64,000 nucleotides of DNA from Actinomycetota bacterium (GCA_009699245.1 WLOQ01000004.1:62001-126000); one strand, 5' to 3'; counted from the stretch's first letter, positions 8,607-18,527 are shown. Program-made: numbers and translations. The notes: generated by a model from the letters alone, not told the origin.

Positions 8607-10037
8607 CTAGAGCGCTGCCAGTTCCTGCGTGATCTCGCCGACCGACGACTTCGCGTCGCCGAAGAGCATCGAGGTCATCGGCTCGTAGTACAGCTCGTTC
8701 TCGATGCCGGCGAAGCCGGGGTTCATCGAGCGCTTGAGGACGATCACGGACTTCGCGTGATTGACGTTGAGGATCGGCATCCCATAGATCGGCGACTCGG
8801 GGTTCGTGTTCGCCGCCGGGTTGGTCACGTCGTTCGCGCCGATCACGATCGCCACGTCGGTGCGCGTGAACTCCGGGTTGATCTCGTCCATCTCCTTGAG
8901 CTGCTCGTACGGCACGTCGGCCTCGGCGAGCAGGACGTTCATGTGGCCCGGCATACGGCCGGCGACCGGATGAATCGCGTACTTCACCTCGACGCCGCGC
9001 TTCTCGAGCTCGGCGGCCATCTCGCGCACGGCGTGCTGCGCCTGCGCGACGGCCATGCCGTAGCCCGGCACGACGACGACGAGGCGCGCGTACGCCATCT
9101 GGATCGCCGCATCGGCAGCCGAGGTGGCGCGCACGCTTCCGGCATGCTCGCCGGCGCCCGCAGCCCCCGCGACGGCCCCGCCGCCACCGAAGCCGCCCGC
9201 GATGATCGACGGGATCGAGCGGTTCATGGCGTCGGCCATGAGACGCGTGAGGATCGTGCCGGACGCGCCGACGATCATGCCCGCGACGATCAGCGCGGTG
9301 TTCTCGAGCGCGAGGCCGGCGGCCGCAGCGGAGAGGCCGGTGAACGCGTTGAGCAGCGAGATGACGACCGGCATGTCCGCGCCGCCGATCGGCAGCACGA
9401 CGAAGAGTCCGAGCAGCGCGGCCGCGACGAGTAGGACGACCATGAGCCAGTCGTCGGTGCCACCGGCGGCGATCGCCACGGCGCAGCCGACAGCGACGAT
9501 GAGGAGCAGCAGGTTGAGCACCTGCTGACCCGCGCCCTTGAGCCCGATCGGGCGGCCCGGCAGGACCTCCTGGAGCTTGCCGAACGCGATCAGCGATCCC
9601 CAGAAGCTGATCGAACCGATGATCGCGGCGAAGAGCGACGGGATGACGAAGGTCAGCTCGTAACCGTCGAAGCCGGAGCTGTCGATGAACTCGGCCCAGG
9701 CGATGAGCGCCACGGCGCCGCCGCCGACGCCGTTGAAGAGCGCGACCATCTGCGGCATCGCCGTCATCTTCACCTGGCGCGCCGAGGGGACGCCGACGAT
9801 GGTGCCGAGCACGAGGCCGACGATGATGAGGACCCAGTTGTGGCCCATGCGCGGCAGCAGGAATGTCGCGACGACGGCGATGACCATGCCGACGGCGGCG
9901 ATCCGGTTGCCGCGCACCGCGGTGCGCGGGCCGGTGAGACCCATGAGGCCGTAGATGAAGAGGCTGAAGGCGATGATGTAGAGGACGTTGATGAAGTCCT
10001 GTTCACGCACGAACGACGAGGCGAGCGGGAGCGTCAT
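8607..10037 (-). CDS. pntB: NAD(P) transhydrogenase subunit beta
   Basis: A 476-residue membrane subunit of the proton-pumping transhydrogenase, which transfers hydride between NADH and NADP+ using the proton gradient. The N-terminal two thirds hold multiple transmembrane helices, with the conserved MPQMVALFNGVGGGAVALIA segment. The C-terminal domain III binds NADP(H), with VVVPGYGMAVAQAQHAV, HPVAGRMPGHMNVLLAEA and IGANDVTNPAA. Length matches the usual 460-480. The ATG at 10035-10037 overlaps the stop of the preceding subunit gene (ATGA), giving translational coupling. The reading frame is open further upstream, but that is antisense noise over pntAB. Confidence 0.96.
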   Translation of the reverse strand: MTLPLASSFVREQDFINVLYIIAFSLFIYGLMGLTGPRTAVRGNRIAAVGMVIAVVATFLLPRMGHNWVLIIVGLVLGTIVGVPSARQVKMTAMPQMVALFNGVGGGAVALIAWAEFIDSSGFDGYELTFVIPSLFAAIIGSISFWGSLIAFGKLQEVLPGRPIGLKGAGQQVLNLLLLIVAVGCAVAIAAGGTDDWLMVVLLVAAALLGLFVVLPIGGADMPVVISLLNAFTGLSAAAAGLALENTALIVAGMIVGASGTILTRLMADAMNRSIPSIIAGGFGGGGAVAGAAGAGEHAGSVRATSAADAAIQMAYARLVVVVPGYGMAVAQAQHAVREMAAELEKRGVEVKYAIHPVAGRMPGHMNVLLAEADVPYEQLKEMDEINPEFTRTDVAIVIGANDVTNPAANTNPESPIYGMPILNVNHAKSVIVLKRSMNPGFAGIENELYYEPMTSMLFGDAKSSVGEITQELAAL

Positions 10038-10348
10038 GACCGCTCCTCCTGCTCGTCCCGCTTGGGCGCGGGCTTCGTCTTGAACATCTCGAGCATGCGG
10101 TCGGTGACGAGGAAGCCGCCGATCACGTTGATCGTCCCGAAGATGATCGCGATCACGAGGATCGCCTTCGCGAAGGCGCCGAGATGCGGCGCGGTGCCCA
10201 GGACGATGATGCCGCCGAGCACGACGATGCCGTGGATGGCGTTGGTGCCCGACATCAGCGGCGTGTGCAGCGTGTTGGGGACCTTGGAGATGACGGCGTA
10301 TCCGACAAAGCCGGAGACGACGAGGATCGCGAGATTCGTGACGAACAT
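10034..10348 (-). CDS. pntAB: NAD(P) transhydrogenase alpha subunit, membrane part
   Basis: A 104-residue protein corresponding to the C-terminal membrane segment of PntA, encoded separately as in many alphaproteobacteria and actinobacteria. Three or four helices are visible, with the conserved SKVPNTLHTPLMSGTNAIHG motif and GFLVTDRMLEMF at the end. With PntB it forms the proton channel. It sits 9 nt after pntAA and overlaps pntB by 4 nt, so the three genes form one operon and should be made in fixed ratio. Confidence 0.95.
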   Translation of the reverse strand: MFVTNLAILVVSGFVGYAVISKVPNTLHTPLMSGTNAIHGIVVLGGIIVLGTAPHLGAFAKAILVIAIIFGTINVIGGFLVTDRMLEMFKTKPAPKRDEQEERS

Positions 10349-10357
10349 GAGGGTCTC

Positions 10358-11500
10358 CTACGCCGCGTCGAGCGCGGCCTTGGCACCGGGATGCAGGACC
10401 TCGCCGCCGCGCGTGATGCACGAACCGGCGACGACCTCGTCCTCGAAGTCGAGTTCCAGCGACGCGGGCGCGCCGTCCTCCCCGTCCTTGATGACGAGCC
10501 CGAGCAGCTCCTGGATGTTGCGCGCGTAGAGCTGGCTCGCGTGCTCGGCCATCTGGGCCGGGAGATTCAGCGGCGAGCGGATCGTGACGCCGTGGCGCAC
10601 GACCGTCTCACCGGGTTCGGTGAGCTCGCAGTTGCCGCCCGTCTCCCCCGCCAGGTCGATGATGACGCTGCCAGCACGCATGCCCTCGACCGCCTCGGCG
10701 CTGACGAGCTTCGGGGCCGGACGACCGGGAACGAGCGCGGTCGTGATGACGACGTCGAAGCCCTTGATGGCGTCGGTGAGCGCCTGCTGCTGGGCGGCGC
10801 GCTCCTCGGCGGTGAGCTCGCGCGCGTACCCGCCCTCGCCTGCGGCCTCGATGCCGAGGTCGAGGAAGGATGCGCCGAGCGACTGCACCTGCTCGGCGAC
10901 CTCGGGTCGCACGTCGTAGCCGGTTGTGACGGCGCCCAGGCGGCGCGCGGTGGCGAGTGCCTGGAGGCCTGCGACGCCCGCGCCCAGGACGAGGACCTTG
11001 GCTGGCGGGATCGTGCCCGCTGCGGTCATGAGCATCGGGAAGAAGCGACCGAGGCTCTCCGCAGCGAGGATCACGGACTCGTAGCCCGCGACGTTCGACT
11101 GGCTGGAGAGCGCGTCCATCGACTGGGCGCGCGAGATGCGCGGCACGGCCTCCATCGCCAGCGCGGTGACCTTCGCGTCACGCGCAGCGGCGGTCGTCAC
11201 GGTGCTCGAGAGCGGCGCGAGGAAGCCGAGCAGCAGCGCGCCTTCACGCATGCGCGCGATGTCGGCGGCCGCAGGCGGCGCGATCGTCACGACCGCGTCG
11301 GCGCCCCAGATGGCCGCGCCATCGTCGGTGATCGTTGCCCCGGCCTCGGCGTACGCCTCATCGGGGATGAGGGCTCCGGACCCGGCGCCACGCTCGACCA
11401 GGATCTCGACGCCGCGCGCGCTGAGCTTGCGCACGACCTCGGGAACGAGGGCGACACGGTGTTCTCCGGGGGCTGTCTCCTGCGGGACGGCGAGTCGCAT
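10358..11500 (-). CDS. pntAA: NAD(P) transhydrogenase alpha subunit, NAD-binding part
   Basis: A 380-residue soluble domain I of transhydrogenase, which binds NAD(H) at the membrane face. It begins MRLAVPQETAPGEHRVALVP, the family signature shared with alanine dehydrogenase. It contains the Rossmann motif VLVLGAGVAGLQALATARRLGA and the mobile-loop region around YARELTAEE. I chose ATG 11500 because the family N-terminus starts there; an upstream in-frame ATG at 11524 adds eight unusual residues. The ECF transporter gene ends 51 nt upstream, so read-through from the B12 operon is possible. Confidence 0.94.
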   Translation of the reverse strand: MRLAVPQETAPGEHRVALVPEVVRKLSARGVEILVERGAGSGALIPDEAYAEAGATITDDGAAIWGADAVVTIAPPAAADIARMREGALLLGFLAPLSSTVTTAAARDAKVTALAMEAVPRISRAQSMDALSSQSNVAGYESVILAAESLGRFFPMLMTAAGTIPPAKVLVLGAGVAGLQALATARRLGAVTTGYDVRPEVAEQVQSLGASFLDLGIEAAGEGGYARELTAEERAAQQQALTDAIKGFDVVITTALVPGRPAPKLVSAEAVEGMRAGSVIIDLAGETGGNCELTEPGETVVRHGVTIRSPLNLPAQMAEHASQLYARNIQELLGLVIKDGEDGAPASLELDFEDEVVAGSCITRGGEVLHPGAKAALDAA

Positions 11501-11551
11501 CAGGCGGTCACGGTAGCGAACCACCCGGGGGCAGCCGGATCGACTCGCAAG

Positions 11552-13108
11552 TCACCCGCGCCCGAGCCGGATCGGCAGCGTGCGGCGTGCCAGCGCGGGG
11601 AGCGCCTGCGCGGTCACCCAGACCGGCGTCTGCGTGCTCGTGCGGGAGTACCGCACGCGCCCGTCCGCACCCTGGAGCGAGCGCAGGAAGGCGAGCGGTG
11701 AACGGCTCATGCCCGGCAGGCGCCGCGCAGGATCGAGCCCGACGGCGAGCAGCGCCTGGATCGCGAGCGCCGTGGACTGGGCGTTCGAGGTGCCGGGCGG
11801 CTGGAGCGCCCATCCGCCGTCGAGCGACTGATGCCCGACGAGCCACGAGCCGCCGCGCGCAGCGGCGCGGCGGAAGTGCGCTGCGGCGAGGGCCTGGACG
11901 GCGGCCGCGGTGTCGTCCGACCCGCTCGGACCGCGCCCGGAGTACGAGAACCCGCCGTCACGATTCTGGTGCGTGCTGATCCAGGCGGCAGCGCGCCGGA
12001 CCCGGGCGGAGCGCGGGCCGTACCCCGCCGCGCGCAGCGCGAGCAGTCCGTAGGACGTCAGGCTGACGAGGCCGTCGAACGACCCGTTGCGGTCCTGCGC
12101 GGCGCGCAGCCGCGCGAGCAGTCCGCCGGTGTGCGGCTCGATGCCCGCCGCGGCCACGGCGAGCATCGTGCGTTCAAGGTCGGCCGTGGTGCGCGAGCGT
12201 CGCGCGTAGCGCAGGAGCAGCGCCTCGGGCGCGAGTGCGCTGCGCCCGACGGCGCAGAGCCCGACGACCGCCCACGACGTCTGCACCGCATTGGACGGGG
12301 TCGCGCGTGCGACGCCCCAGCCCCCGTCGGCGTTCTGCGCCCGCGCAAGCCACTGCGCTGCGCGCGAGGCGGGCGACGCCGCGGCGGCCGGCTCGGCACG
12401 CCCCGCGACGCTGAGCCCCGTGGCGGCGATCGTGGCGATGAGCAGCAGCGCCGTGGGCCGGGCGAGACGCGCCGCGGTGGAGACCGGCGCCGCCGGCGCC
12501 GCCTCCCAGCGCACGTCGAGACGCGCGCGAAAGCGCAGCAGGGCGCGCACGAGCATCGGCCCGAAGGCGAGCGCGAAGGCGACGTTGCCGACGGCGTGCG
12601 CGATGTTGAACGGGAGCGACGTCACGCTGATCGCCAGATACTGCCCGACCGTCTGATTCCCGGCGTAGGTCACGAAGACCGAGAGGTCCATGATCGTCCC
12701 GAAGGCGAGTCCTGCGGCGCCGCAGGCGATCGCCAGCGGCACGCGCCCGATCTCGCGCCCGGCGAGGCGCCCCAGGCCCGCGCCGAGGAGCCCACACAGC
12801 CCCCACGCGACCATCTGCCATGGCGTCCATGGGCCCTGGCCGAAGATGAGGTTCGACGAGAGCGCGGCGACCGCACCGACGACGAACCCCGGCGCGCCGC
12901 CGAGCACGAGGCCGGCGATGAGGACGATGTCGGTCGTCGGCTTGACGTTCGGGATCGGCGCGAACGCGATCCGGCCGATCGCCGCGAGCGCGGCGAGTGT
13001 GGCGACCAGGGCGATCGTGCGCGAGTCGGCCTGCGTACGCTCGTACCACGCGAATCCGGCGAGCAGCGTGAGGCCGAGCAGCAGCAGTGCGGCGAGCTCC
13101 CAGCTCAT
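11552..13108 (-). CDS. ECF transporter S component fused to transcobalamin-like alpha/alpha barrel
   Basis: A 518-residue fusion. Residues 1-200 are a six-helix membrane protein with the look of an energy-coupling-factor substrate-binding (S) component, including NVKPTTDIVLIAGLVLGGAP and FGQGPWTPWQMVAWGL. A seventh helix at about residues 213-232 follows a basic cytoplasmic loop and should carry the rest outside. Residues 245-510 are prenyltransferase/squalene-cyclase-type repeats: QNADGGWGVA, QDRNGSFDG, HQNRDGGFSYSG, HQSLDGGWALQP, then STALAIQALLAVG and TPVWVTAQALPALA. This alpha/alpha barrel is the fold of the N-terminal domain of intrinsic factor and transcobalamin. With the upstream cobalamin riboswitch, the likely substrate is cobalamin or a corrinoid precursor. 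Its ATG overlaps the ATPase stop (ATGA). Confidence 0.85.
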   Translation of the reverse strand: MSWELAALLLLGLTLLAGFAWYERTQADSRTIALVATLAALAAIGRIAFAPIPNVKPTTDIVLIAGLVLGGAPGFVVGAVAALSSNLIFGQGPWTPWQMVAWGLCGLLGAGLGRLAGREIGRVPLAIACGAAGLAFGTIMDLSVFVTYAGNQTVGQYLAISVTSLPFNIAHAVGNVAFALAFGPMLVRALLRFRARLDVRWEAAPAAPVSTAARLARPTALLLIATIAATGLSVAGRAEPAAAASPASRAAQWLARAQNADGGWGVARATPSNAVQTSWAVVGLCAVGRSALAPEALLLRYARRSRTTADLERTMLAVAAAGIEPHTGGLLARLRAAQDRNGSFDGLVSLTSYGLLALRAAGYGPRSARVRRAAAWISTHQNRDGGFSYSGRGPSGSDDTAAAVQALAAAHFRRAAARGGSWLVGHQSLDGGWALQPPGTSNAQSTALAIQALLAVGLDPARRLPGMSRSPLAFLRSLQGADGRVRYSRTSTQTPVWVTAQALPALARRTLPIRLGRG

Positions 13109-14733
13109 GGTGTCACCTCGAAGGTCATGCGGTCGATGAGCAGGTCGCCGCCCTCCTCGGGGCGCAGCACGGGCGGATCCTCACCGGCGAGCACGCGCGC
13201 CGTCTCGGTCGCGAAGTGCCAGCCGCCCGCGAGCACCTCGTGCGCCGACGCGTCGGCGATGACGCGCCCGTCGGCGAGGAGGACGACGCGGTCGGCGAGC
13301 GCGGCCGCGAACTCGGCGTCGTGCGTCGCGACGAGGACGCCCGTGCCGGCCTGCCCGAGTGTGCGCATCCGCTCGATCAGGTCGCCCTTGGCCGCGCGGT
13401 CCATGCCGCGAGTCGGCTCATCGAGCAGCAGCGCGGCGGGCGGCGGCCCATCGCCGAGAACGATCGCAAGCGCGAGCCGCTGGCGCTCCCCGCCGGAGAG
13501 GTCGCGGGGATGCCGATCGACGAGCTCCGCGAGGCCGAATCCGGCGAGCGCGACCGCCGACGCCTCGTCCCCGACGCGCTCGTGGAGGAAGTAATCCCCG
13601 GGGCTCTGCAGCAGGAGCGCGACGCGGCCCTGGGCCTCCACGCTGCCGCGCGTCGGCTTCTGCATCGCTGCGAGGTGCCGCAGCAGCGTCGACTTGCCCG
13701 AGCCGTTGCGGCCCATCAGGGCGACGAGCTCGCCGGGCTGGAGCTCGAGGTCGATGCCGCGCAGGACGCTGCGCCCGTCGGGCACCTCGTGCCAGAGGCC
13801 GTGAGCGCGAACCGCGGCGGGGGCGCCCGTGGCGCGCGTGCGGCGCAGGGAGCGCCGGCGCGCCGGCGCGCCCTGCGCCTGATTCGTGGCCGCGGGTCCC
13901 TCGCGCAGCAACCCGTGGGCGCGCAGCGTCGCGCGCGCATCCTTGACGCCCGCCGGCGCTGGACGCAGCCCGGCCCGCGCGAAAAGCCGCGCTGCCGGCG
14001 TCTGGAGTGCCGGAATCCGGTCGGCGGCCCACGCGAGCATCTCGCTCGGCGGCGCGTCGCAGGCCACGCGGCCGTCCTCGAGCACGATCACGCGGTCGGC
14101 GTGCGCGAGGCAGCGCTCGAGCCGGTGCTCGGCGAGCAGCACCGCCGTCCCCTGCTCCTCGTTGAGCCGGCGCAGCAGCCAGATGAGCTCGTCCCCGGCG
14201 ACCGGATCGAGCTGAGATGTCGGCTCGTCGAGCACCACCAGTTGCGGGCGCCCCGCGAGCGCTGCGCCGAGTGCCACGCGCTGGAGCTCGCCGCCGGAGA
14301 GTTCGTGCGTCGGCCGGTCGAGCAGCCCGGCGACGCCGAGCGCGAGCGCCGCCTCCTCCACGCCGCGCGCGACGGCCGCAGGCGCCGCGCCGCGATTCTC
14401 GAGGGGGAACGCGAGCTCGGAGCGCACGGTCCCCATGACGATCTGCGTCTCGGGGTCCTGGAGCAGCGTGCCACAGACGGCGGCAAGGTCCCCGGGGCCG
14501 TGGTCGCGGACGTCGAGGCCGCCGGTGACCGCCGTTCCGGATGCCGTGCCGCCGTGGAAGTGCGGCACAAGGCCGCTCGCCGCGCGCAGCAGCGTCGACT
14601 TGCCGCATGCGGAGAGCCCCGCGACGACGACGAACTCGCCGGGCTCGACGCTCAAAGTGACGTCCTTGAGCGCGGGCGTGACCGCGCCCGGGTACGTGTA
14701 CGAGAAGTGCTCGAGACGCAGGACCGGGCTCAC
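13105..14733 (-). CDS. ECF transporter ATPase, two ATPase domains in one chain
   Basis: A 542-residue protein carrying two ABC ATPase domains, equivalent to EcfA and EcfA' fused. Domain 1 has Walker A GLSACGKST, signature LSGGELQR and Walker B VVLDEPTSQLDP. Domain 2 has GRNGSGKST, LSGGERQR and LLLDEPTRGMDR. The roughly 70-residue connector is Ala/Arg rich. It should power uptake through the T and S proteins encoded on either side. The start is GTG at 14733, overlapping the T-protein stop by four bases (GTGA); an extension to 14934 would be antisense noise. All key catalytic residues appear present in both halves. Confidence 0.92.
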   Translation of the reverse strand: MSPVLRLEHFSYTYPGAVTPALKDVTLSVEPGEFVVVAGLSACGKSTLLRAASGLVPHFHGGTASGTAVTGGLDVRDHGPGDLAAVCGTLLQDPETQIVMGTVRSELAFPLENRGAAPAAVARGVEEAALALGVAGLLDRPTHELSGGELQRVALGAALAGRPQLVVLDEPTSQLDPVAGDELIWLLRRLNEEQGTAVLLAEHRLERCLAHADRVIVLEDGRVACDAPPSEMLAWAADRIPALQTPAARLFARAGLRPAPAGVKDARATLRAHGLLREGPAATNQAQGAPARRRSLRRTRATGAPAAVRAHGLWHEVPDGRSVLRGIDLELQPGELVALMGRNGSGKSTLLRHLAAMQKPTRGSVEAQGRVALLLQSPGDYFLHERVGDEASAVALAGFGLAELVDRHPRDLSGGERQRLALAIVLGDGPPPAALLLDEPTRGMDRAAKGDLIERMRTLGQAGTGVLVATHDAEFAAALADRVVLLADGRVIADASAHEVLAGGWHFATETARVLAGEDPPVLRPEEGGDLLIDRMTFEVTP

Positions 14734-15608
14734 AGTTCGGTCCCCCGCCGGTCGCAGAACGGCAGCAGCGCGACGAGCACGATCAGGACGCCGATCACGA
14801 GCGCCCCGAGGCCGTCTGCCGCGTGCAGGCGCGGGTAGGCGTCGAGGTCCGCCGCCCCGGTGATCGCGGTGACGACTGCGATCAGGCAGAGCGCGACTGC
14901 GGCCGCGAGGACCGACAGGTCGTGGCGCGACCACGGCTCGCGCGCGCCGCGCACGCCGCTCGGGCGTGCGGCGTACCCGCGCAGTTCGAGCGTCGCCGCG
15001 ACGTCCACAGCCCGGTCGAGCGCCCCGGAGGCGACGGCACGCACCACGGCGGCGCGCCCGCGGGTCGTGCCCATTCCAGCCGCGTCGGGTCGGCAGCGCA
15101 GCGCCTCGTCCATGCGCCGCGCATCGCGAGCGAGGACGGGCACCATGCGCGTGGCGAGCGTCGCAGTCAGCGCGGACCGCAGTGACCGGCGCCCGAAGGC
15201 CCGCAGCACCGCATCCGGATCGACGCAGGCGGTGAGCAGCGCGAAGGCGAGCACGATGACGACGACCCGCATCCCGAGCAGCAGGCCGTAGACGAGGGCC
15301 TCGAGCGTGACGTCGACCTGACCGAGCGGCGGGAGCTCCCCGAAGCGCCAGAGCACCGTGAGGCCCTCACGCACGACGAGTGCGTTGACGATCGCGAGCG
15401 TCCCCGCGAGAACGAACGAGAAGCGCCCGGCGCGCAGGAGGTCAGGGCCGACGCCGGCGAGGTGCCCAGCAAGGAGTGTCGCGACGGCGACCGCGGCGAG
15501 GACGACCGGATGTGTGAAGGAGAGCGCGAGCGCAACCAGCGCGAGGCCGTAGAGCGCCGTGACGCCCGCACGTGCAGCGTGCAGCGGGCTCGCCCGCCGG
15601 CGGTACAT
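14730..15608 (-). CDS. ECF transporter transmembrane (T) protein, CbiQ-like
   Basis: A 292-residue membrane protein of the CbiQ/EcfT family that couples the ATPases to the S component. It has hydrophobic helices at the N-terminus, the characteristic cytoplasmic region with LATRMVPVLARDARRMDEALRC and VAATLELRGYAARP (the ELRG/xRx type coupling motif), and a C-terminal hydrophobic pair. The ATG at 15606-15608 shares one base with the stop of the upstream DUF4430 gene (TGATG). Position inside the riboswitch-led operon assigns it to the predicted cobalamin importer. Confidence 0.88.
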   Translation of the reverse strand: MYRRRASPLHAARAGVTALYGLALVALALSFTHPVVLAAVAVATLLAGHLAGVGPDLLRAGRFSFVLAGTLAIVNALVVREGLTVLWRFGELPPLGQVDVTLEALVYGLLLGMRVVVIVLAFALLTACVDPDAVLRAFGRRSLRSALTATLATRMVPVLARDARRMDEALRCRPDAAGMGTTRGRAAVVRAVASGALDRAVDVAATLELRGYAARPSGVRGAREPWSRHDLSVLAAAVALCLIAVVTAITGAADLDAYPRLHAADGLGALVIGVLIVLVALLPFCDRRGTEL

Positions 15609-16558
15609 CAGCGGCCGGCTCCGACCGGCACGGGGATCGGCCCGCCGCCATCGACCGCGACGGCGTAGTGACCTCGAAGGATCTGCGTGCGGAATGCCCG
15701 CGCCGCCGCGAGTACCCCGGCAGCGTCGGTGCCGGTCACGACCCACACGGGCGGATCCTCGCCGACCCGCGTCGCCGCGATGAGGCCCGCGCCCGCGCCG
15801 AGCCGGCGCACCGTGCGACCGCCCGCGTCGAGCAGGGCGATCGTGCGGCCGCCGTTCTGCATGCGCGCGTAGACACCGCTGGCTGCGGGGCCGTCCTCGA
15901 TCTGCACCAGCGCGCTCTCGGCCCGCACCTGCGCCCAGGGGCCGACGACGATGCGCAGGGTCTCCATCGCCGCGGTGGTGCGCAGCGCAGCGATGCCCCC
16001 GACGACGTCCTCTTGGCCGAGGCCGTCCTGAACGGCGCGACAGGCGTCGCTCTTCACGTCAGCGCAGTCGACGCGCGTCGGCAGGCGATCCGCGCCGCCC
16101 GGGCCGTGCCGGAACGGCTCGGGGAATTGCCCGACGACGGCGGGCACGCGGTCGGTCGCGCTCCAGTCGCGCAGGTCCCACCAGATCGACTGGTTCTCCC
16201 GCACGCGGGTCGCCGCGGCGCCCTTCGAGGCCTCAACCCCGTTGACGAAGTAGAACCAGTCGTACGGCCTCCCACCGGTGCGCCCGCCACAGAGGTCCTT
16301 CACGCACTGGACGAAGCCGCCGCCGTAGCGCGTTGTCACCGGTGCCTCGCGCTCGAGCAGCCGCATCGCCGTCTCGGACGACGGCACCTTCGGCACGGTC
16401 ACCTGCGCGACCGGGACGGAGCCGAAGTCCCGCGTCACCCGCAGCTCGACCGCACCAGTGTCCTTCCCCGCCCCCGGACCACACCCCTTCGCGCTGATGA
16501 GGACGACGATCGTCCCCACGAGGATCAGGACGATCGAGAAGCGGCCGACGGTGATCAT
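15608..16558 (-). CDS. Membrane-anchored DUF4430 protein (transcobalamin beta-domain-like)
   Basis: A 316-residue protein with an N-terminal hydrophobic anchor (residues 5-23, VGRFSIVLILVGTIVVLIS); CGPGAG just after it could allow lipidation, though no clean lipobox is present. A DUF4430 domain follows at about 40-135: YGGGFVQCVKDLC, then RPYDWFYFVNGVEASKGAA and RENQSIWWDLRDW, the typical W-x-Y-x-VNG and GD/WW pattern. In intrinsic factor and transcobalamin this beta domain caps cobalamin. The C-terminal 170 residues are an unrecognised alpha/beta region. It starts 3 nt after the stop of the other DUF4430 gene. I infer an extracellular corrinoid-binding role beside the barrel of the S-component fusion. 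Confidence 0.75.
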   Translation of the reverse strand: MITVGRFSIVLILVGTIVVLISAKGCGPGAGKDTGAVELRVTRDFGSVPVAQVTVPKVPSSETAMRLLEREAPVTTRYGGGFVQCVKDLCGGRTGGRPYDWFYFVNGVEASKGAAATRVRENQSIWWDLRDWSATDRVPAVVGQFPEPFRHGPGGADRLPTRVDCADVKSDACRAVQDGLGQEDVVGGIAALRTTAAMETLRIVVGPWAQVRAESALVQIEDGPAASGVYARMQNGGRTIALLDAGGRTVRRLGAGAGLIAATRVGEDPPVWVVTGTDAAGVLAAARAFRTQILRGHYAVAVDGGGPIPVPVGAGR

Positions 16559-16561
16559 CGG

Positions 16562-17719
16562 TCAGCCGACCAGGAAGATGACGCGATTGCGGGCCGTGCG
16601 GGCATTCGTGGCCCGACTCAGGCCGCGGCTCACGTTGCCGGCCCCGTCCGTGAGGCGCACGTCGAGGACATAGCGACCGGTCGCGAGCGCCTCGGGCAGG
16701 AGGTAGGACCACGCCACCCGGTCGCCGACCGTGAACCACTGTCCGCGGGTCGCACCGCAGCGCCACATGCCGAGCCAGCGCTCCTGCGCGGCGTCGTAGG
16801 TCTGGCAGGAGCGGCGACCGCCCGCTGTCGCAGGCACGCGGCGCGTGAGGCGCAGCTGGACGCGGCGCAGGCCGGACGGATCGGCTGCCACGCGGCCCTG
16901 GAGCATGCGCGGCGCGCGACCGAGCGCGTAGCGATGGCCGTCGCGCAGCGTGGCGATCTGCCCGCGCGGGGCGCGGCGGTCCGCGGCTGTGCCGCAGCGG
17001 CCGTCGAAGCCCGTCGTCATGCAGGCGGCGACCGTCGCGCTCGGGATCGATCCATCGCGCGTCGCGCGCAGGTCGGCGCCCGCAAGGGTGCTGAGCGTGA
17101 TGTCCGCCGTGCCGTCAGCGCCGGTCGTCACCGATCGGCCACCCGGGAGCACGATCGTCGCGCCTGCCGCCGGGCCGCGCCGCACGCTGCCGGCCGGCGC
17201 ATAGCCGACCCAGTCGTTGACCACCTGAGTGACCGTCGCGGTGAACGACACGCCGGGACGGATCGCGGCCGGCACCGCCAGATCGAGCAGCGTCACGGAG
17301 AAGTCGCTCTGATTCGGAATCGGCGCGAAGACGAGGTCGTCGCCGTCCTGGACCGCCTGCTGACAGACCCCGACGGACACCGAGACGCCGTTGGCGAAGA
17401 AGCCCCAGAAGGTCGGATCGGTGAACGTCAGCGTCTGGGTCTTGATGCGGTCCATCGTGAATCCCAGGCCGTCATACCACGTTCCCGCCCAGTCGCCGGA
17501 CGTCGCGCGCTCGAGGGCGCCCGCGGCGGTCGTGCCGGGGCATGTACCGCCGGGCTTGGCGACGTCGGCACCGCCGGCCGTGACGGTCGTGCGCGGCACC
17601 AGGGTCGAGGTGACCCCCTCGATGCGCACCGTCATCGATGCGACGGCGGAGGACGAGAAGAGCGCCAGCGATGCCAGCAGGATTCCGGTCAGAAGACCGG
17701 TTGAGCGCAGTGTGCGCAT
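16562..17719 (-). CDS. Secreted DUF4430-like protein, first gene of the B12 operon
   Basis: A 385-residue secreted protein. The signal peptide MRTLRSTGLLTGILLASLAL ends near SSAVAS at residue 28. Residues 30-135 resemble DUF4430, with the DPTFWGFFANGVSVSVGVC and VQDGDDLVFAP elements matching the NG and GD positions. An Ig-like carboxypeptidase-regulatory-type module follows (about 150-230), then a C-terminal beta-sandwich with ADPSGLRRVQLRL and LTDGAGNVSRG. Four cysteines in the C-terminal half could form disulfides. GGAAAGGGGTGG before the ATG is the ribosome binding site and lies about 35 nt after the cobalamin riboswitch, so the gene is expected to be repressed by B12. Confidence 0.72.
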   Translation of the reverse strand: MRTLRSTGLLTGILLASLALFSSSAVASMTVRIEGVTSTLVPRTTVTAGGADVAKPGGTCPGTTAAGALERATSGDWAGTWYDGLGFTMDRIKTQTLTFTDPTFWGFFANGVSVSVGVCQQAVQDGDDLVFAPIPNQSDFSVTLLDLAVPAAIRPGVSFTATVTQVVNDWVGYAPAGSVRRGPAAGATIVLPGGRSVTTGADGTADITLSTLAGADLRATRDGSIPSATVAACMTTGFDGRCGTAADRRAPRGQIATLRDGHRYALGRAPRMLQGRVAADPSGLRRVQLRLTRRVPATAGGRRSCQTYDAAQERWLGMWRCGATRGQWFTVGDRVAWSYLLPEALATGRYVLDVRLTDGAGNVSRGLSRATNARTARNRVIFLVG

Positions 17720-17756
17720 GAACGAGCCACCCCTTTCCGCGAGGGCGTATGTGTTT

Positions 17757-17921
17757 TGCGGCCGGAGGGAGGTCTCCTGGCTCCCGGGCACCATCCCCGC
17801 ACCTTCCCGGGGCCTTCTCGGCTCCAGTGGCTGCTCGCGCATGCGGGGTGGCGTCACGCCCGGTCACAGTGGCGGGTCCGCGCCGGATTCACACCGGACT
17901 TCCCTTGACCACCGACCTTGA
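17757..17921 (-). ncRNA. Cobalamin riboswitch
   Basis: Read on the minus strand, the leader holds the conserved cobalamin riboswitch elements in order: GGGAAGTCCGGTGTGAATCC, then GCGGACCCGCCACTGTGA, the B12 box AGCCACTGGAGCC, CGGGAAGGTGCGGGGATG, and GGGAGCCAGGAGACCTCCC. These are the classical P3-P6 core and the 3' receptor segment. It ends about 38 nt before the ATG of the first DUF4430 gene and reads in the same direction. No U-rich terminator is obvious after it, so translational control is more likely, but this is inference. Confidence 0.95.
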
Positions 17922-17929
17922 ACACTACG

Positions 17930-17957: not shown

Positions 17958-18527
17958 GTGACCGTCAATCTCACTCGGATCTACACGCGACTCGGCGACG
18001 ACGGACAGACCCACCTCGGTGATATGAGCCGCGTCCCGAAGACCGACGCGCGCATCGAGGCGTATGGCACGGTCGACGAGCTCAACAGCCAGATCGGTGT
18101 GACGCTCACCGTCGACGGGCTCCCCGCGGGGTACGCCGACTGGCTGCGCCGCATCCAGAACGACCTCTTCGATGTGGGCGCCGACCTCTCGGTGCCGCAG
18201 GGTGCCGGCGACGGTGGCGACGAGCGCGGACGCCTGCGCGTGCGCCCCGAGCAGGTCACCTGGCTCGAGCAGCGCTGCGACGAGGTCAACGCGACGCTCA
18301 CGCCGCTGAAGTCGTTCGTCCTGCCGGGCGGGACGCAGGCCGCCGCGCACCTGCACGTGTGCCGCACCGTCTGTCGCCGCGCCGAGCGACGCGTGATCCT
18401 CGTCGAGGACGCGAACGCCGAGGTCCTGCGCTACCTCAACCGGCTCTCGGACCTGCTCTTCATCCTCAGTCGCGGCGCCAACGCCGGCGACGAGCCGCTC
18501 TGGCAGCCGGGCCTCTCGCAGGCCTAA
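17958..18527 (+). CDS. ATP:cob(I)alamin adenosyltransferase, PduO type
   Basis: A 189-residue PduO-family adenosyltransferase that converts cob(I)alamin and ATP to adenosylcobalamin, the cofactor needed by acyl-CoA mutases. The N-terminus IYTRLGDDGQTHLGDMSRVP is the ATP-binding signature. AYGTVDELNSQIG, the FVLPGG motif and RRAERRVILV followed by LNRLSDLLFILSRGAN complete the family pattern. It diverges from the B12-riboswitch operon across a 238-nt region, so uptake and activation of B12 are encoded side by side. It lies outside the riboswitch itself. Translation probably starts leaderless at GTG 17958. Confidence 0.93.
   Translation: MTVNLTRIYTRLGDDGQTHLGDMSRVPKTDARIEAYGTVDELNSQIGVTLTVDGLPAGYADWLRRIQNDLFDVGADLSVPQGAGDGGDERGRLRVRPEQVTWLEQRCDEVNATLTPLKSFVLPGGTQAAAHLHVCRTVCRRAERRVILVEDANAEVLRYLNRLSDLLFILSRGANAGDEPLWQPGLSQA

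Follow-up and report, generated by a model that had tools for sequence, protein, structure and literature searches.

How does a bacterium without an outer membrane capture vitamin B12 ahead of the S component of an energy-coupling factor (ECF) importer? Such capture is largely undescribed, and the question is raised by an operon in a 64,000-nucleotide stretch of DNA from an Actinomycetota bacterium (GCA_009699245.1, WLOQ01000004.1:62001-126000), which we analyzed as a whole and refer to as the window. The operon combines ECF transporter genes with counterparts of the two domains of intrinsic factor and transcobalamin, B12 carriers known mainly from animals. We consider it likely that it encodes a dedicated, B12-regulated importer of the CbrT type equipped with a transcobalamin-like capture module that is split between polypeptides. 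The operon spans 17928..11552 on the minus strand and consists of a riboswitch followed by five genes, with a divergent neighbour given here last:

17750..17928, minus strand: cobalamin riboswitch RF00174 in the operon leader (70.2 bits, E 2.8e-15, full model length)
16562..17719, minus strand: P0001, secreted DUF4430-like protein with a C-terminal Ig-like region (Pfam, signal peptide)
15608..16558, minus strand: P0002, membrane-anchored DUF4430 protein (Pfam DUF4430, 37.1 bits)
14730..15608, minus strand: ECF T protein of the CbiQ/EcfT family (PF02361, 50.7 bits)
13105..14733, minus strand: double ECF ATPase with two ATP-binding cassette (ABC) domains per chain (PF00005, two stretches, 147 bits)
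11552..13108, minus strand: P0005, S component and alpha/alpha barrel in a single open frame (Pfam, PDB match, model)
17958..18527, plus strand: PduO-type cob(I)alamin adenosyltransferase, divergent neighbour (TIGR00636, 184 bits, cut-off 108)

All the parts named in an earlier note on this DNA were found at or very near where it had placed them, by Rfam, Pfam and structure matches, and the tight packing it described was also seen: along the five genes there is a gap of 3 nucleotides (nt) followed by overlaps of 1, 4 and 4 nt, with the GTG start of the double ATPase overlapping the T stop by 4 nt. The riboswitch match exceeds the RF00174 gathering score of 31.5 bits, and in a whole-genome search it was the sole cobalamin riboswitch of the genome. 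Folding of the leader gave no informative signal (z -0.88). The gene order is not due to chance, because the same order recurs in other genera. A chance assembly or mis-annotation was rejected on the riboswitch match, the Pfam matches and the recurrence in relatives.

Transporter core and the B12 economy of the genome

The T protein belongs to the EcfT/CbiQ family (50.7 bits against a PF02361 cut-off of 25), with TIGR02454 falling under its own cut-off. PF00005 occurs twice in one chain of the ATPase, the two-ABC-domain composition of an ECF transporter, and ECF ATPase models are its best matches (259-276 bits, under the equivalog cut-offs). P0005 consists of an S component (residues ~30-197), an extra membrane helix (~217-234) and an extracellular alpha6/alpha6 barrel (~242-518). 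Six lysine or arginine residues after the S domain put this segment inside the cell and the barrel outside, past one further helix, according to charge-based topology.

The S domain matched 6FNP chain A with E 3.6e-27 using a 13-member profile and 2.5e-15 using the single sequence, and the two proteins have motifs in common. The next PDB match of the profile was at E 0.027. This structure is ECF-CbrT of Lactobacillus delbrueckii, which was shown to import cobalamin and cobinamide (PMC5997447). The S component had been proposed to be of the B12 type, and it does fall in the CbrT family. Judged from the sequences, the case for a B12-controlled ECF importer appears strong.

The resemblance to ECF-CbrT includes homology of the S component over its whole length, the ECF T protein and ATPases, a nearby PduO gene (the L. 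delbrueckii cluster nrdJ-cbrS-cbrT-pduO includes pduO; PMC5997447) and an apparent B12 auxotrophy. However, L. delbrueckii uses a shared ECF module, while the T protein and double ATPase studied here are dedicated and encoded in the same operon. L. delbrueckii is also without described surface capture proteins, whereas here the S component carries a barrel.

The substrate could instead be a precursor such as cobinamide or dimethylbenzimidazole, cobalt, or an unrelated vitamin rather than complete cobalamin. Cobalamin riboswitches also govern cobalt and precursor transporters (PMC3766115), ECF-CbrT takes up cobinamide as well (PMC5997447), and in Pfam the nearest named S families of P0005 are riboflavin and general ECF. 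Yet among solved S components CbrT is closest by a wide margin, the S component is not CbiM, and the use of a precursor would require CbiC and CobS, neither of which is matched in the genome. We therefore give this explanation very little weight and regard a non-B12 substrate as unlikely. The cobalt importer CbiMNQO was rejected because of the CbrT match of the S domain and the lack of any CbiM match in Pfam.

The genome (1.95 Mb, 99.4% complete) contains three genes with a B12-binding domain, which by our reading of the sequences are one large MetH-like gene and two resembling the C-terminal part of a B12-dependent mutase. Profile searches found no match to CbiC, CobS or FecCD in this genome, and detected these families in 7, 10 and 13 of 14 control genomes, respectively. 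Given three B12-binding-domain genes and no CbiC, CobS or FecCD, the organism should need whole external cobamide. On this gene content it is apparently unable to make vitamin B12 and is very probably dependent on an external supply, for which the operon would be the obvious importer. A BtuCD-type importer elsewhere in the genome was rejected for want of a FecCD match. BtuFCD is similar in that a high-affinity extracytoplasmic capture protein feeds an ATP-driven B12 importer, but its capture fold and permease are unrelated, and its FecCD permease is the family that found no match here.

On the opposite strand, 29 nt separate the riboswitch from the start of the PduO gene. At the other end of the operon, the S-barrel gene is followed after 27 nt by NAD(P) transhydrogenase genes (window 8607-11524, minus strand), which read-through transcription of the B12 operon may reach.

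The two halves of the proposed capture module

P0002 contains the only DUF4430 (PF14478) of the genome to score over the Pfam cut-off (37.1 against 23.8 bits). Its AlphaFold2 model has a predicted local distance difference test (pLDDT) score of 91.4. In fold searches residues 31-133 matched haptocorrin (Z 13.7), transcobalamin (Z 13.1) and intrinsic factor (Z 12.6), as well as a DUF4430-sized protein of R. gnavus (Z 12.9). The top 15 rows for this domain were all such proteins, including 5NP4, the isolated human transcobalamin beta domain with cyanocobalamin. A P0002-family profile gave no transcobalamin match among PDB sequences, and the relation is visible by structure alone. Going by its predicted structure, the DUF4430 domain of P0002 is the beta domain of transcobalamin, haptocorrin and intrinsic factor by fold, as the earlier note had suspected. 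The C-terminal alpha/beta domain of P0002 (residues 144-304; window 15608-16130, minus strand) is a conserved feature of the family. It lacks a Pfam name and is similar in fold to the GH67 glucuronidase N-terminal domain and to a domain of BcsB (Z ~10).

The second exported protein, P0001, has a signal peptide ending in ...SSSAVAS, and its own Pfam matches are sub-threshold (DUF4430 at 17.4 bits, cut-off 23.8; Big_13 at 22.4 bits). It is nevertheless of the DUF4430 type, because its orthologues in neighbouring families pass the cut-off (41-47 bits in genomes G197 and G111, about 25 bits in G055 and G154) and because hhalign aligned the P0001 and P0002 families with a probability of 95% (E 2.9e-8). 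The proposed exported DUF4430 pair was thus recovered, with P0002 identified directly and P0001 through its relatives.

The barrel of P0005 matched SQHop_cyclase_C (PF13243) at 49 bits. In the model of P0005 (pLDDT 88.9), residues 242-518 form an alpha6/alpha6 barrel that superimposes on intrinsic factor with Z 21.3 and a root-mean-square deviation of 2.9 over 228 residues. Barrels that are joined to DUF4430 in Bacillota are homologous to the barrel family of the window (hhalign 99.9%, E 4.5e-31). In the predicted models the beta half provides the specific evidence for a transcobalamin-like module and the barrel provides compatible evidence; as to fold, this reading appears well supported.

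Intrinsic factor, transcobalamin and haptocorrin likewise pair an alpha6/alpha6 barrel with a DUF4430-type beta domain. The animal carriers are single soluble chains taken up by receptors, whereas here the halves lie on separate chains, are membrane-anchored and stand beside a primary transporter. Separately produced alpha and beta parts of human transcobalamin associate only when cyanocobalamin is present (PMC5599065), and both domains bind cobalamin in isolated form (PMC11107200), which makes it plausible that such a clamp occurs in split form in nature.

Recurrence in relatives and the role of the barrel

Close relatives are Solirubrobacterales metagenome-assembled genomes, and of the 296 genomes sampled from the phylum, 86 contain relatives of P0005. 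Among 72 S loci of actinobacteria, RF00174 was matched in the same orientation as S and no more than 12 kb ahead of it in 41 (31 over the cut-off), DUF4430 is present in 38, and both in 27; several of the misses are contig ends. A scan of GTDB genomes gave 80 named loci, 58 of them with 5.5 kb or more of sequence upstream of S. T and A are present in all of these 58, DUF4430 in 57 and a barrel in 48. Rfam scans placed a riboswitch at the start of the operon for 10 of 11 Solirubrobacterales loci and for most of the Bacillota loci checked; a regular-expression core search had missed most true sites. The same scans found no cobalamin riboswitch in three archaeal loci, bins with DUF4430-T-A-S operons (L145, L161, L165). 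Of 22 DUF4430 genes unlinked to S, 10 are preceded by RF00174 at a distance of up to 5 kb (chance ~0.1%); three of these 22 probably belong to the same operon, interrupted by a contig end. A search of the family for this gene order under cobalamin riboswitches, which the earlier note had called for, thus showed that the order recurs across genera and that its relatives mostly have RF00174 upstream. Those of the note's refuting conditions that we checked, on fold and on riboswitch association, were decided in favour of its reading.

Three layouts were observed. The barrel is fused to S in 31 named loci, nearly all from Solirubrobacterales/Thermoleophilia. In other Actinomycetota and part of the Bacillota it is encoded apart from S by a neighbouring gene for an exported protein, which in many cases has a signal peptide of its own and a C-terminal membrane helix. 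In many Bacillota the barrel and DUF4430 are combined in a single surface protein, in some cases with S-layer or LPXTG anchors. The expected split of the halves, with the barrel on the transporter, accordingly holds in the window and nearly only in Solirubrobacterales, outside which the barrel is either exported separately or joined to DUF4430. Neobacillus has both forms of the pair, joined and split, in different species (L164 and L163). These joined and split homologues provide the strongest sequence argument that both domains work together. The same two Neobacillus genomes have FMN riboswitches a few kb upstream of the B12 operon.

Several results weigh against a transcobalamin-like clamp. 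The nearest barrel folds are squalene-hopene and drimenyl cyclases (Z 26), ahead of intrinsic factor (21.3), which is level with several unrelated glycosidases and epimerases. The P0005 barrel, unlike the animal carriers, gave no match to PF01122 (Cobalamin_bind) in a Pfam search. A DxDD-like motif is kept in most barrels, which could mean catalysis. Among the 58 well-covered loci, 10 show no barrel (a few of these are contig-end cuts), and some genomes have only riboswitch-A-S (L052, L055, L061). A Bacillota barrel profile retrieved terpene cyclases and prenyltransferases from the PDB sequences and not transcobalamin. In favour of the clamp, one of the Bacillota barrels joined to DUF4430 has a weak, sub-threshold Cobalamin_bind match (16.9 against 25 bits). 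By itself, the barrel does not mark a protein as a B12 binder. The transcobalamin-like barrel fold claimed earlier stands on the match to intrinsic factor, but the fold is not closest to that protein.

Could the barrel be an enzyme, terpene-cyclase-like or corrinoid-modifying, that happens to sit in the operon? Class II terpene cyclases are its nearest folds and the DxDD-like motif is common in the family. Against this, the window copy has GSDD in place of the DxDD of class II cyclases, in other members a lone D precedes G, A, S or T, and several lack a DxDD-like motif. The second domain of squalene-hopene cyclases is missing from P0005, and the barrel is exported, fused to a transporter and under a B12 riboswitch. 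An enzymatic role is highly improbable.

Another possibility is an ECF-CbrT B12 importer without a two-sided clamp, in which the DUF4430 lipoproteins alone bind B12 and the barrel docks the capture protein, anchors the transporter to the cell wall or gates S. The beta domain of transcobalamin by itself can bind cyanocobalamin (PMC5599065), the barrel fold is common and unspecific to B12 binders, and in some related loci no barrel was found beside DUF4430 and the transporter. However, the barrel and DUF4430 share one chain in many Bacillota operons, and the barrel gene accompanies the operon in 48 of the 58 loci. We consider this explanation doubtful, with a small share of the probability, and prefer a clamp made of both halves.

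Other associations of DUF4430 were also seen. In the three genomes with riboswitch-A-S only, a DUF4430 gene is located elsewhere, directly under its own cobalamin riboswitch. Proteins of 1500-1900 amino acids with DUF4430 repeats lie beside the operon in an actinobacterial family with weak or no riboswitch match at the loci (L068 2514-8171, L072 2833-7446, L081). One group of Actinomycetota encodes an exported beta-propeller protein of the PQQ/BamB type between the riboswitch and the DUF4430 gene (L039 4549-7251, L040 7752-10358), and this protein may be a BtuG-like additional B12 binder.

Proposed loading mechanism and its meaning

When adenosylcobalamin is scarce, the riboswitch would permit expression of the operon. 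The DUF4430 domain of membrane-anchored P0002, and probably that of P0001, would bind the corrinoid outside the cell. The barrel, tethered to S by the extra membrane helix, could then shut over the opposite corrin face in the manner of the transcobalamin alpha domain. With the beta half membrane-anchored and the barrel tethered to S, closure would put B12 just above the CbrT pocket, and we infer that the held cobalamin is handed to the CbrT-like S domain directly below. Toppling of this domain in the membrane with the T protein and double ATPase would release cobalamin inside, where the divergent PduO enzyme would adenosylate it.

Two bacterial systems invite comparison. In Streptomyces, SCO2321-SCO2325 places a barrel of the SCO2321 family, a SCO2322-family protein, T, double A and S in one operon, but the barrel is separate with a C-terminal membrane helix and SCO2322 is unmatched by Pfam DUF4430. 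Probably this operon is a B12 importer of the same kind. Genomes of the Streptomyces type (L084-L087) carry such operons, with weak upstream RF00174 matches of 29-41 bits in several. BtuB-BtuG of Bacteroides also uses a surface B12-binding lipoprotein that hands over to a transporter, and a beta-propeller protein is likewise present in some related actinobacterial operons; the capture fold of BtuB-BtuG, however, is a propeller and transport proceeds through a TonB-dependent outer-membrane channel.

In the open-licence literature we found no description of DUF4430 or transcobalamin-like proteins with bacterial ECF importers, nor of SCO2321-25, in agreement with the earlier suggestion that the arrangement may be undescribed. 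ECF-CbrT and control by cobalamin riboswitches are already known; the transcobalamin-type module on ECF-CbrT and the barrel-S fusion appear to be new.

In the survey, the transcobalamin-type module accompanies CbrT importers in Actinomycetota and Bacillota as well as in a few archaeal bins, in most cases with B12 riboswitches. Tentatively, and as a possibility rather than a probability, a prokaryotic two-part clamp of the intrinsic-factor/transcobalamin type may load ECF-CbrT importers; in Solirubrobacterales its alpha half would be built into S, so that corrinoid-induced closure would itself be the loading step, and the animal carriers may derive from this module or share an origin with it. 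DUF4430, many exported proteins resembling prenyltransferases and the orphan SCO2321-2325 genes of Streptomyces thereby gain a testable function. The findings suggest a possible source of the animal B12 carriers, and bacteria may capture B12 by the same kind of clamp as animals.

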